33,993 nt of DNA from Natronohydrobacter sp. Lineage in GTDB: Bacteria > Pseudomonadota > Alphaproteobacteria > Rhodobacterales > Rhodobacteraceae. Below, piece by piece: positions 21,394-26,089 of this stretch. A program made the translations under genes and the position numbers. The stretch lies in NCBI GenBank assembly GCA_020832585.1, contig JAFIEL010000015.1:1-33993 (forward strand), in the 5' to 3' direction. The notes beneath the pieces were generated by a model that saw only the letters and a list, made by a program, of their open reading frames with translations, did no database searches and was not told the DNA's origin. The number at the start of each line of letters is the position of its first letter. The stretch's first letter is position 1.

Positions 21394-23532
21394 ATGAGCG
21401 ATCCCAAATCCCGTTGGGCCGCCCTTGCTTCGAAAGAGTTGCGCAATCGCCCCCCCGAGAGCCTGACCTGGAACACGCTCGAGGGCATCCCGGTTCAGCC
21501 GCTCTATACCGAGGCCGATACTGCGGGCCTGCCGCATCTGGGCAATATCCCCGGCGAGGCTCCTTATACCCGCGGCGTCAAGGCCACGATGTATGCAGGC
21601 CGCCCCTGGACGATCCGGCAATACGCAGGCTTTTCCACGGCGGAAGAATCGAACGCCTTCTACCGCAAGGCGCTGGCCGCCGGGCAGCAGGGCGTGTCGG
21701 TGGCCTTCGATCTGGCCACCCATCGCGGCTATGACAGCGACCATCCGCGCGTCGAGGGCGATGTGGGCAAGGCCGGTGTGGCGATTGACTCGGTCGAGGA
21801 CATGAAGATCCTCTTTGACGGCATCCCGCTGGAAAAGGTCTCGGTCTCGATGACGATGAACGGGGCGGTTATTCCGATTCTGGCGAATTTCATCGTGACG
21901 GGCGAAGAGCAGGGGGTGGATCGCAAACTGCTGTCGGGGACCATTCAGAATGACATTCTGAAGGAATTCATGGTCCGCAACACCTATATCTTCCCGCCAG
22001 AGCCCTCGATGCGGATAATAGCGGATATCATCGAATATACCTCCGCCGAGATGCCGAAATTCAACTCGATCTCGATTTCCGGCTATCACATGCAGGAAGC
22101 GGGTGCCAATCTGGTGCAGGAACTGGGCTTCACTCTGGCCGATGGGCGCGAATATGTCCGCACCGCGATTGCGCGCGGCATGGATGTGGACCATTTCGCC
22201 GGGCGGCTGTCCTTCTTCTTTGCGATTGGCACCAATTTCTTCATGGAAATCGCGAAACTCCGCGCCGCGCGTCTGCTCTGGTCGCGGGTGATGGAGGAAT
22301 TCCAGCCCAAAGACCCGAAATCCAGCATGCTGCGCACGCATTGCCAGACCTCTGGCGTCAGTCTGCAGGAACAAGACCCCTATAACAACGTGATCCGCAC
22401 TGCCTATGAGGCTATGTCGGCGGTTCTGGGTGGCACGCAATCGCTGCACACCAATGCGCTCGATGAGGCGATTGCGCTGCCGACCGAGTTCAGTGCCCGG
22501 ATCGCGCGGAACACGCAGTTGGTGTTGCAGGAAGAAACCGGTGTCACACGCGTCGTCGATCCGCTGGCGGGCAGCTATTACATCGAAAAGCTGACCCATG
22601 ATCTGGCGGAAGCCGCCTGGGCCTTGATGGAAGAAGTCGAGGAAATGGGCGGCATGACCAAGGCCGTGGCCTCTGGCATGCCCAAGCTGCGGATTGAAGA
22701 AACCGCCGCGCGGCGTCAGGCGATGATCGACCGGGGCGAGGAAGTGATCGTCGGCGTCAACAAATACCGCAAGGACAAGGAAGACCCGATCGATATTCTG
22801 GATATCGACAACATGAAGGTGCGCGACAGCCAGATCGCCCGGCTGGAGAAGATGCGCGCAAGCCGCGACCAGAACGCCTGTGATGCGGCGCTGGCGGAAC
22901 TGACACGCCGCGCCGAGGAGGGTGGAAACCTTCTCGAAGCCGCAGTCGAAGCTGCCCGTGCGCGGGCCTCAGTCGGAGAGATTAGCATGGCGATGGAGAA
23001 AATCTTTGGCCGCCACAGGGCCGAGGTCAAGACATTGGCCGGGGTTTACGGCGCAGCTTATGAGGGCGACGACGGTTTCGCGGCGATCCAGAAGGATGTG
23101 GAAGCCTTTGCCGAGGCCGAGGGCCGCCGTCCGCGGATGCTGGTCGTCAAGATGGGGCAGGACGGGCATGACCGGGGCGCGAAAGTGATCGCCACGGCCT
23201 TCGCCGATATCGGCTTTGACGTGGATGTGGGCCCGCTGTTCCAGACGCCCGCAGAGGCTGCGCAGGATGCCATTGACAATGATGTGCATATCATCGGCAT
23301 CTCCAGCCAGGCGGCAGGGCACAAGACGCTTGCGCCGCAACTGGTCAAGGCGCTGAAAGAGCAGGGGGCCGAGGATATTCTGGTGATCTGCGGTGGTGTG
23401 ATCCCGCAGCAGGATTACCAGTTTCTCTATGATGCCGGGGTGAAGGCGATTTTCGGTCCCGGCACCAATATACCCGAAGCCGCGAAGAAGATCCTCGATC
23501 TGGTGCGCGCGGCGCGGGGGCTTGCGGGCTGA
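21394..23532 (+). CDS. scpA: Methylmalonyl-CoA mutase
   Basis: This 712-aa adenosylcobalamin enzyme isomerises (R)-methylmalonyl-CoA to succinyl-CoA, completing propionyl-CoA assimilation. The N-terminal TIM-barrel part shows [20 protein letters not shown] and [15 protein letters not shown]. The C-terminal B12-binding domain has [14 protein letters not shown], with His592 as the cobalt ligand, and later GGVIPQQDY. As a single 712-aa chain it matches the homodimeric form (also called mcm), with no separate small subunit needed. The ATG at 21394 has AAAGGA. Methylmalonyl-CoA epimerase and a MeaB-type chaperone gene are not in the window. Confidence 0.97.
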
Positions 23533-23551
23533 TCCACCCGGGGTGACGAGA

Positions 23552-23581
23552 AGAAAAAGGGCGGGGGTAATCCCCGCCCTT
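23552..23581. terminator. Terminator between mutase and doxX-like gene
   Basis: AAGGGCGGGG (23557-23566) and CCCCGCCCTT (23572-23581) form a 10-bp stem with loop GTAAT. Read on the minus strand the stem is followed by TTTTTCTT, a proper intrinsic terminator for the DoxX gene. In the plus direction the U-run is only two bases, so it would work less well for the mutase. Confidence 0.8.
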
Positions 23582-23587
23582 GATCAT

Positions 23588-23986
23588 TCATGCATAGGCT
23601 GCGTTGTCGCGGCCCAGCTTGGCGTCAAGCGACCACGCACCGGCACCGGTGATCCACAAAGCCAGATAACCACCTGCAAGGCCAAGGTTTTTCAGAAGCT
23701 GTGTCATCTGCATCTGATCGGCCGGGTCGAAATGGTAGAGCAGGCCAGAGACCACACAGAAGGCCGCGAGCGCCAGCGCCACGATCCGCGTCTGAAGGCC
23801 GATAATCAGGGCCAGACCGCCGAGGATCTCGAAAAGCACAACAGGCCAGGCCAGCACAGCCGGGATACCACCAGTGGCCATGAAAGCGCCGAAACCTTCG
23901 ACATTGCCGAGTTTGCCGAAGCCGGCGACGACGAAAAGCAGGCCGAGCAGGATACGCGCGACCAGAAGAAGCGAAGTGTTTGTCAT
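23588..23986 (-). CDS. DoxX family membrane protein
   Basis: This 132-aa protein has four predicted transmembrane helices and the DoxX pattern, beginning LLVARILLGLLFVVAGFGKLGN and continuing GIPAVLAWPVVLFEILGGLALIIGLQTRIVAL. DoxX-type proteins are linked to quinone or thiol redox chemistry in some bacteria, but most are uncharacterised. I chose the ATG at 23986 with AAAGGACAG upstream; an in-frame ATG 21 bases earlier lies over that site. A near-perfect long inverted repeat covers the ribosome site, suggesting control. Confidence 0.88.
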   Translation of the reverse strand: MTNTSLLLVARILLGLLFVVAGFGKLGNVEGFGAFMATGGIPAVLAWPVVLFEILGGLALIIGLQTRIVALALAAFCVVSGLLYHFDPADQMQMTQLLKNLGLAGGYLALWITGAGAWSLDAKLGRDNAAYA

Positions 23987-23991
23987 GTGAG

Positions 23992-24030
23992 CTGTCCTTT
24001 TGTCCAAACTGTGCTGGACATAAAGGACAG
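23992..24030 (-). promoter_or_regulatory. Long inverted repeat covering the doxX ribosome site
   Basis: CTGTCCTTTTGTCC (23992-24005) pairs with GGACATAAAGGACAG (24016-24030) except for one bulged T, leaving a 10-base loop. On the minus-strand message the 3' arm contains AAAGGACAG, the ribosome site of the DoxX gene. It could be a translational control hairpin or, as DNA, a dyad for a repressor. Confidence 0.7.
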
Positions 24031-24086
24031 ATCATCGTCCACGCCATTCCCTGTCTGGTCACAGGGCCTGTGCAAAGCTGCGCGCC

Positions 24087-24551
24087 TTACCCGCCCGATT
24101 GCGCTTTCTTCTGCCAGCGCCCAGCCTCTTCGGACCAGTATTCCGCCAGAACGCCTGCCGCGGTCATGGCTTTCCAGTCCTCGCGCGCCGCCTGCATTGC
24201 CGCAGTGTCCTGCCCGTCAAACAGCACCCAGAGCCGTTCCAGCCCTGCGACCTCATCAGGTGTGACCGGCGCGCGGTCCACCGCCATCACGCCCTGGGGG
24301 GCGTTCGGTGCCGTGGGGTCCACCGTCAGCAGCACCGGCTGATCCGCATCATGCGGGCCACCGGCCAGCCCATGCGGCAGGAAACTGGCCTTGTCATCGG
24401 TCCAAAGTGCAAGGTCCAGCTGTTCGAGCATGCCCCGGTCGCGCCCGCGCAAGGCCACGCGCCAGCCCTGATCCAGCGCGCGCGTCAGCAACGTGCGCGC
24501 TGTCGCCTCCAGCGTGCTATGGGTCAGGTGGTAGAACATGGCCTTGCCCAT
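24087..24551 (-). CDS. holC: DNA polymerase III chi subunit
   Basis: This 154-aa protein matches HolC, the clamp-loader accessory subunit that links the polymerase III holoenzyme to SSB. It begins (MGKA)MFYHLTHSTLEATARTLLTRALDQGWRV and contains DLALWTDDKASFLPHGLA and RLWVLFDGQD, which are typical of the family. The ATG at 24551 has AGGTGA overlapping the pepA stop. An ATG 12 bases further in is the alternative. Its position directly after pepA is the usual pepA-holC arrangement in proteobacteria, and the 4-base spacing implies one transcript. Confidence 0.92.
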   Translation of the reverse strand: MGKAMFYHLTHSTLEATARTLLTRALDQGWRVALRGRDRGMLEQLDLALWTDDKASFLPHGLAGGPHDADQPVLLTVDPTAPNAPQGVMAVDRAPVTPDEVAGLERLWVLFDGQDTAAMQAAREDWKAMTAAGVLAEYWSEEAGRWQKKAQSGG

Positions 24552-24555
24552 CGCG

Positions 24556-26019
24556 TCACCTGTCCTCGAACCGCGCGCGGATCAGCGCATCCAGTGCCAG
24601 CACGCCCCAGCCAGAGGCCCCCTTGGGCGCATGCGCGCTGTCAGACTTGGTCAGGGCAACCCCGGCAATGTCGAGATGCATCCAAGGCGTGCCAGGCTTG
24701 ATGAAACAGTGCAGGAATTCCGCCGCCGTGATCGACCCGGCAGGGCGTCCGCCGGTGTTCTTGATGTCGGCAATGCGCGATTTGATCAGCGTGTGATAGG
24801 CGGGATCAAGCGGCATCCGCCACGCGCCTTCGCCTACATCTGCCGCAGCTTTCAGAAATGCATCAGCCAGCGCATCGTCATTGGCGAAAACGCCTGCCTT
24901 CTCATGCCCCAGCGCGATGATGATCGCGCCCGTCAGTGTGGCCAGGTCAATGACGGCAGAGGGCTTGAATCGTTCCTGCGCATACCAGAGCACATCAGCC
25001 AGCACCAAACGCCCCTCGGCATCGGTATTGATGACCTCGATCATGTCGCCTTTCATGGATTTGATGACATCGCCGGGGCGCTGAGCGCGGGCATCGGGCA
25101 TGTTCTCGACCAGCCCCACCAGCCCGACGACATTCGCACGCGCTTTCCGGGTGGCCAAAGCCTGCATCAGCCCGACCGTGACCGCCGCGCCGCCCATATC
25201 CATGGTCATCTCTTCCATGCCCGCACCGGGTTTCAGCGATATGCCGCCTGTGTCGAACATCACGCCCTTGCCGACCACAGCGAGCGGTGCACCCTCCGCC
25301 CCCTGCCAGTGCATCACCGCGACCTTGGACGGGCTGTCAGAGCCTTGCCCCACCGCCAGAAGCGCGCGCATCCCCAGCTTTTCAAGTTCCGGCTCATCAA
25401 GGATCTCGACCTTCAGGCCAAGCGCCTCCATGCCCTTGATCTGGTCCGCGAATGTGGTCGTGGTCAGCACATTGGCAGGCGCATTGACCAGATCGCGGGT
25501 CAGATGCACCGCGCTTGCCAGTGCGGTGGCCTCTGCGATGGCGGGCGCGGCAGTCTCGGGCGATTTGACCATGACGCGGGTAGGGCCGAAACCGGGCTTG
25601 GGGTCGGATTTCTGCGCTTCATACTGGTAAGCGCGCAACAGCGCCGCGCGCAGCATCTCGCCCAAGGGCAGGGTATTGGCGCAGATCAGCATTGCGCTGC
25701 GGGTCTGAAGCTTGCCGATGCTTAGCCCCGCGCGGCGCAGAGCCTCCGGCGTGACGCGCTTGGGCATATGGATGATCTGCAACGCCTCGGCGGCCATGCC
25801 GGTCGGCCATGCCAGCGTCAGCGCGTCACCGGGTTTCAGCTTGGCGAAAGCAGGGCTGTTGAGCGCGCGGGTCACAGCGCCGCGCGTCAGCTTGTCGGCA
25901 TGGCGGGTCAGCCGGGGCAAGGGGGCGTCGGGACCCGCAAAGACCGACACGCGCCCCTCATGCGCGGTGATCGTGTCGAGCGAAAGATCGCAGAGTTCGG
26001 GTATAGGCAAGCTGGTCAT
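24556..26019 (-). CDS. pepA: Leucyl aminopeptidase (M17 family)
   Basis: This 487-aa cytosolic enzyme removes N-terminal residues from peptides using two divalent metals, normally as a hexamer. The M17 active site is complete: Lys251, Asp256, Lys263, Asp274, Asp333 and Glu335 with Arg337, in VGKGVMFDTGGISLKP, MDMGGAA and the signature NTDAEGRL. The N-terminal domain (1-155) is diverged, as is common. The ATG at 26019 has GGAGC. A GTG/ATG extension to 26046 would place that site within the coding region. In some bacteria PepA also binds DNA; nothing here speaks for or against this. Confidence 0.95.
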   Translation of the reverse strand: MTSLPIPELCDLSLDTITAHEGRVSVFAGPDAPLPRLTRHADKLTRGAVTRALNSPAFAKLKPGDALTLAWPTGMAAEALQIIHMPKRVTPEALRRAGLSIGKLQTRSAMLICANTLPLGEMLRAALLRAYQYEAQKSDPKPGFGPTRVMVKSPETAAPAIAEATALASAVHLTRDLVNAPANVLTTTTFADQIKGMEALGLKVEILDEPELEKLGMRALLAVGQGSDSPSKVAVMHWQGAEGAPLAVVGKGVMFDTGGISLKPGAGMEEMTMDMGGAAVTVGLMQALATRKARANVVGLVGLVENMPDARAQRPGDVIKSMKGDMIEVINTDAEGRLVLADVLWYAQERFKPSAVIDLATLTGAIIIALGHEKAGVFANDDALADAFLKAAADVGEGAWRMPLDPAYHTLIKSRIADIKNTGGRPAGSITAAEFLHCFIKPGTPWMHLDIAGVALTKSDSAHAPKGASGWGVLALDALIRARFEDR

Positions 26020-26089
26020 GGGCGCTCCGTTCACGGGTTCGCCCAAGACCTAGCGCGCGAGGGCGCGCTTGGCCATGCCAGATTAGCGC

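Follow-up and report, generated by a model that had tools for sequence, protein, structure and literature searches.

The transposase of IS10/Tn10 is reportedly protected from external promoters, as Davis, Simons and Kleckner are said to have described in 1985: RNA entering from outside would fold in a way that hides the ribosome site, and RNA from the element's own promoter reportedly does not carry the upstream arm. In IS200, 5' secondary structures are said to repress transposase synthesis (a result ascribed to Beuzon, 1999), and the element reportedly employs an upstream terminator in addition. Thermometers and translational riboswitches are cis-acting regulators that sequester the Shine-Dalgarno (SD) sequence. 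Antisense RNA control of transposases is treated in PMC8450116. Our literature searches found nothing on a -10 region pairing with an SD, which is the arrangement predicted here for the chromosomal gene doxX.

The locus lies in a stretch of 33,993 nt of Natronohydrobacter sp. DNA (contig JAFIEL010000015.1, assembly GCA_020832585.1), called the window in this text. The genes concerned are:

23588..23986, minus strand: doxX, 132 aa, ATG start at 23986..23984 (Pfam DoxX PF07681, E 5.1e-17)
24087..24551, minus strand: holC, DNA polymerase III chi (Pfam DNA_pol3_chi, E 7.9e-32)
24556..26046, minus strand: pepA, M17 aminopeptidase, start codon provisional (Pfam Peptidase_M17, E 3.3e-119)

The holC gene is co-directional with doxX, ends 100 nt ahead of the doxX ATG and is the presumed source of read-through RNA into doxX; this gene order is common to many relatives. 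A longer TTG frame of doxX, from 24007, overlaps the leader. From the opposite side a methylmalonyl-CoA mutase gene converges on doxX, and between them, directly 3' of doxX on the minus strand, sits a strong intrinsic-terminator-like hairpin (23557..23581, 10 pairs, 8 of them G-C). Terminator-like sites in the 900-nt region number 4 against 0.9 in shuffles, one being the strong site after doxX. The holC-doxX gap holds a single weak terminator-like stem of 5 pairs (24040..24025), which could limit read-through itself.

Natronohydrobacter and Roseinatronobacter records were the nearest relatives found for the window, and doxX is present in 36 of the 37 genus genomes searched, the window's own included. 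In several more distant Rhodobacteraceae (L006, L014, L016, L018 and others) the doxX relative adjoins gyrA, and the gyrase A C-terminal domain was matched by 11 of the 42 scanned neighbour ORFs of doxX relatives. In L017 (G208) a second DoxX-domain frame adjoins the doxX relative, placing two doxX genes close together there.

Across the ribosome site of doxX, the following elements were read:

23992..24030, minus strand: hairpin or inverted repeat of 39 nt, read in the sequence
24030..24016, minus strand: 5' arm of the hairpin, with a bulged A at 24021
24015..24006, minus strand: loop of the hairpin
24005..23992, minus strand: 3' arm of the hairpin
24000..23995, minus strand: SD of doxX, AAAGGA, read in the sequence, inside the 3' arm

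The minus-strand letters of 24030..23992 are CTGTCCTTT-A-TGTCC-AGCACAGTTT-GGACA-AAAGGACAG, and CTCAC separates them from the doxX ATG. They build 9 + 5 pairs with one bulged A and a 10-nt loop, 39 nt in all; an extended form of the hairpin has 15 Watson-Crick pairs and leaves a loop of 8 nt. The gap from SD to ATG is 8 nt, and the SD is identical or similar in relatives. The original prediction, a 39-base near-perfect inverted repeat over the doxX SD, is borne out, with AAAGGA lying in the 3' arm. Its extent (23986-24030) was too generous at the lower boundary, since 23986..23984 is the doxX ATG and the element proper stops at 23992.

In a scan for Watson-Crick stems with at most one single-nt bulge and a loop of 3-12, no other hairpin in the 34-kb window reached 14 bp, and this one is the longest of its type there. 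Dinucleotide shuffling of the window never produced one (0 of 40), so the hairpin exceeds what chance would give in a single stretch of this size; these figures concern a hairpin that had been picked out of the whole window, which qualifies their significance. The RNA fold of 76 nt at the hairpin has a z of -3.49, with 0 of 200 shuffles equally stable. One comparable hairpin somewhere in a 3.3-Mb genome would not be remarkable, judging from the shuffle counts at 10-13 bp.

The region upstream of the hairpin contains these promoter elements:

24072..24060, minus strand: activator-like box CACAG-GCC-CTGTG, from the alignment of 35 distinct upstream regions
24050..24044, minus strand: GGAATGG element, from the same alignment
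24017..24022, minus strand: predicted -10 element TATGTC, from the TATnT spacing in relatives, inside the hairpin 5' arm
24010, minus strand: predicted transcription start (TSS), about 7 nt after the -10 element from which it is inferred, in the hairpin loop

In the alignment of 35 distinct upstream regions, a promoter common to the relatives has the form GCACAG-N3-CTGTG-N9-GGAATGG-N21-TATnT. The GCACAG-N3-CTGTG-N9-GGAATGG box is kept in the genus and found in a looser form in other Rhodobacteraceae, the CTGTG half being looser in some relatives such as the Roseibaca types. By a regular expression, 23 of 49 distinct upstream regions (window counted) match the window exactly in the distance between GGAATGG and TATnT. 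Despite the fixed GGAATGG-N21-TATnT spacing, the distance from TAT to the ATG is variable in relatives, from 35 to 41 nt. A standard sigma-70 scan gave no promoter at this site. TATGTC (24022..24017) resembles the Caulobacter RpoD -10 consensus GCTANAWC, as given in PMC8144410. Taken as sequence, the conserved upstream region resembles an activator-dependent promoter with an alphaproteobacterial-type -10.

The only perfect copy of the box in the genome is the window's own. Sites with at most 2 mismatches number 11 against 1 in the control, and two sites have a single mismatch; of these, one falls within a long open frame and the other at the end of one. A LysR-type regulator beside doxX was considered as the owner of the box and rejected, HTH_1 being matched by 1 of 42 neighbouring ORFs of relatives (picked from 86 listed).

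The earlier reading of the dyad was right about the SD and overlooked the -10, as the 5' arm holds the conserved -10-like element. RNA from that promoter would therefore lack the hairpin, which makes a classic riboswitch or thermometer on it unlikely. We suggest, as a tentative reading that we hold at slightly under even weight, that the doxX hairpin is a start-site-dependent mask of the ribosome site, made from the promoter itself. The 5' arm would be part of doxX's own promoter, namely the -10 element plus the bases to the predicted start, and the 3' arm would carry the SD. Read-through RNA from pepA-holC would have both arms, and its SD would be hidden; RNA from doxX's own promoter would start in the loop, have no 5' arm and be translated. 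If the mask acts on read-through RNA only, doxX would be expressed only when its own promoter, which includes the conserved upstream box, is active. This is the simplest model that fits both the promoter and the pairing.

In the tree of the pepA-holC-doxX region, which has long-branch rows (for instance L038 and L044, with no holC upstream), the window groups with L035 and L036 (98/96). The exact dyad is not conserved: it is absent from these nearest sisters and was seen in none of the relatives' upstream regions displayed. The stem is near-perfect in the window and imperfect in its sisters. In three species of another group (L038, L042 and L044) a stem occurs at the homologous place with the letters TGTGC/GCACA or TCTGC/GCAGA, keeping the same surrounding CCTTT-A / AAAGG as in the window. 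Among the displayed regions, that of L085 (titled Enemella evansiae, an actinobacterium) is identical to the region of L019, a locus of the family Rhodobacteraceae, and L073 (titled Flavobacteriia) agrees with Roseobacter L072 in both upstream region and contig number; both records are probably mislabelled or contaminated.

Two ways of reading the repeat had been offered in the original prediction, an RNA switch and a DNA dyad, the former to be recognized by compensatory changes and the latter by further copies upstream of other genes. Compensatory changes were found among relatives (TGTCC/GGACA, TGTGC/GCACA, TCTGC/GCAGA), which favours base pairing over a fixed operator. The search for copies went the other way: the genome contains TGTCC-N10-GGACA 4 times and the reversed control 11 times, and as an operator family the motif was discarded. 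The dyad does reach from the -10 to the SD, a plausible place for a repressor bound to TGTCC/GGACA half-sites at the promoter; nevertheless the other 3 sites lie within long open frames (993 to 1146 nt), and the letters of the half-sites, their register and their spacing differ among relatives, so that we consider such an operator highly improbable. A redox switch at doxX finds no support; none of the results obtained concerns redox, quinones or heat.

In 9 chosen species, changes on both sides were seen in 4 of 15 pairs, a number matched by 170 of 500 shuffles. For the covariation score of the same 9 species, 3 of 500 shuffles did as well and slid versions of the structure never did; over the slid versions the structure has an advantage, having been taken from the window. 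RNAalifold on 9 sequences found the stem unprompted but weakly (-1.71 kcal/mol, covariation term 0.01). Across relatives, the stem has neither a conserved loop nor a fixed register. The shuffle count for both-sided pairs, the nearest sisters without the stem and the lack of the exact dyad in the relatives' regions displayed are what would be expected if the -10 and the SD happened to be complementary in the window species, with the signal of the relatives inflated by shared descent. We judge this chance origin decidedly unlikely, owing to swap tests from which the window is excluded.

These tests compared the pairing of each species' -10 region with its own leader and with the leaders of other species. 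From 49 distinct upstream regions (amino acid identity of at least 69%), 27 distinct regions entered the TAT-anchored tests (28 in one run, L135 repeating L063), selected by an automatic promoter match score of at least 3 and a TAT-to-ATG distance of 33-42; those left out had no promoter match, a weaker match or another TAT-to-ATG distance. The TAT-anchored figures exclude the window (L002). The duplex energy averaged -9.79 kcal/mol with the own leader and -7.83 kcal/mol with those of other species (n=26), giving z -4.91 with 0 of 2000 permutations, although permutation counts are not exact probabilities here since the species are related. Reversing either partner abolished the effect (z -0.31 and +0.39), and codons 1-4 used as a control gave z +0.76. 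One control was not clean, as the box/GGAAT region with the leader gave z -1.99 (60/2000). Without L038, L042 and L044 the effect was still z -4.13. Sub-windows narrowed the 5' partner to TAT-4..TAT+12 (z -3.4, -3.5), with the 3' partner consisting of the SD and the bases immediately behind it; TAT-12..TAT+4 alone gave z -0.70, so the pairing partner in relatives is the -10 plus the following bases, not the -10 alone.

Applied to 104 further positions of these loci, an identical geometry gave a mean z of 0.27 (sd 1.18, minimum -2.83), against -4.60 for the target. When one species per clade was taken, three draws of 13 gave z -3.05, -3.98 and -2.32. Anchored on the ATG, with 7 offsets tried, doxX reached at best z -4.2 in 32 genus leaders, which are largely the same species as the TAT-anchored set and constitute a re-anchoring rather than an independent sample. 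At the same 7 offsets, the leaders of nine other genes (pccA, hyp20307, DUF4174, mcm, holC, pepA, mipA, cmk and xpt, with 12-23 sequences each) gave z no lower than -2.1. Neither the null places nor the control leaders come near the doxX value, and the signal surviving in the one-per-clade sets argues against shared descent as its source.

The helix registers differ among species, with TATGTCC/GGACATA in L037 and L043, ATGTGTCG/CGACACAT in L094 and a window-like register in L038, L042 and L044, and this variation of spacing points to RNA pairing rather than to a protein-bound dyad. The own leader is no or hardly better than those of others in seven relatives (L036, L035, L039, L041, L058, L060 and L075), the nearest two relatives of the window, L036 and L035, being among these weak pairers. 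In the Roseibaca-type clade the duplex z of -1.67 is on par with its reversed control (-1.73). Taken over the relatives, the complementarity of the -10-to-start segment with the leader is kept by covariation.

Such complementarity could also be kept by mutation instead of selection, if template switching during replication recopies one arm from the other: an imperfect inverted repeat would be rewritten, and the result would look like compensatory changes. Template switching has been described for RNA hairpins in PMC8794818, and it would suit both the two nearby pairs changed on both sides inside one small group and the stem that is near-perfect in the window but not in its sisters. We hold it to be rather unlikely, as the signal involves the SD and the energy of opening it, is spread over several registers and clades, and does not show in any of the nine control leaders.

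The computed state of the SD fits the mask, being paired in the longer RNA and free in the own-promoter RNA, although the masking in relatives weakens with RNA length. In the window, opening the SD costs 11.6 kcal/mol in the long RNA and 1.25 kcal/mol in RNA from the predicted TSS, and the site is masked at every RNA length tried (10.7 to 13.0). For the 26 relatives (window excluded), RNA from TAT-20 costs 4.00 kcal/mol as against 2.78 kcal/mol with the upstream part swapped (z 5.3, 0/5000), and RNA from the predicted TSS costs 1.64 kcal/mol on average. The long RNA exceeds the short one by more than 0.5 kcal/mol in 20 of these 26 relatives, the opposite being seen in 1. The nine control genes range from z -2.3 to +2.0, with doxX anchored likewise at 3.6. 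A shuffle test of SD occlusion in the long RNA covered 31 regions and gave a mixed outcome: with the window set aside, 7 of 30 regions had p<0.1 but 5 were at the opposite extreme (rank at least 95 of 100); the Fisher p was 0.005.

The masking signal peaks for RNA starting 12-20 nt ahead of TAT and weakens with a longer 5' stretch (z 1.9 at TAT-50, 2.9 to 3.4 at TAT-65), being lost in L054 and L053. This counts against the mask, since real read-through RNA is long. It favours a little another arrangement, in which the TSS slightly precedes the 5' arm and the main doxX mRNA carries the stem as a regulatory hairpin, gating translation in response to a protein, an RNA, a ligand or temperature; the unprompted, if weak, recovery of the stem by RNAalifold is also in its favour. 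We regard this as unlikely, because TATnT is fixed relative to GGAATGG and variable relative to the ATG, as a -10 would be, and because the stem varies in loop and register. Moreover, Rfam gave no match above chance level in 23400..24400 (the single match, sraA, scores 22.2 bits, where the gathering score is 56), and neither a known riboswitch or RNA thermometer family nor a conserved sensor loop was found there. A simple thermometer would probably need a less stable stem than the window's.

Returning to the start-site-dependent mask, the mean opening energy is 4.71 in the 14 cases where a co-directional holC is upstream and 2.19 in the 6 of the Roseibaca-type clade, a comparison of very few independent clades in which non-holC loci were oriented by open frames only. 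The model agrees with this stronger masking behind holC. In L058, of the Roseibaca-type clade, the upstream frame appears divergent; even so, SD opening in this clade gives z 2.1. A broader proposal, that a promoter's -10-to-start segment doubles as an anti-SD arm, with the RNA start deciding translation, and that this is kept genus-wide at an ordinary chromosomal gene, is possible but we advance it with more doubt than confidence.

If true, the arrangement would be a compact insulation from a neighbour's transcription that needs no strong terminator and is built of two signals that the gene requires anyway. It would be overlooked by screens confined to structure in mapped mRNA, and further genes that follow a co-directional neighbour may be insulated in this way. 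The swap test can be applied to any set of orthologous leaders.

Among known systems, thermometers and translational riboswitches share with doxX a stem whose 3' arm contains the SD; they differ in that, by the promoter reading, the doxX mRNA would lack the 5' arm, and in that the doxX stem has no conserved loop and no Rfam match above chance. IS200 is similar in having a stem that hides the SD of a single gene, but it reportedly has an upstream terminator, where the doxX gap has only the weak 5-pair site. The likeness to IS10 is that read-in RNA hides the ribosome site and own-promoter RNA lacks the upstream arm, the doxX version being predicted. IS10, however, is a mobile element, whereas doxX is chromosomal and its upstream arm overlaps the predicted -10.
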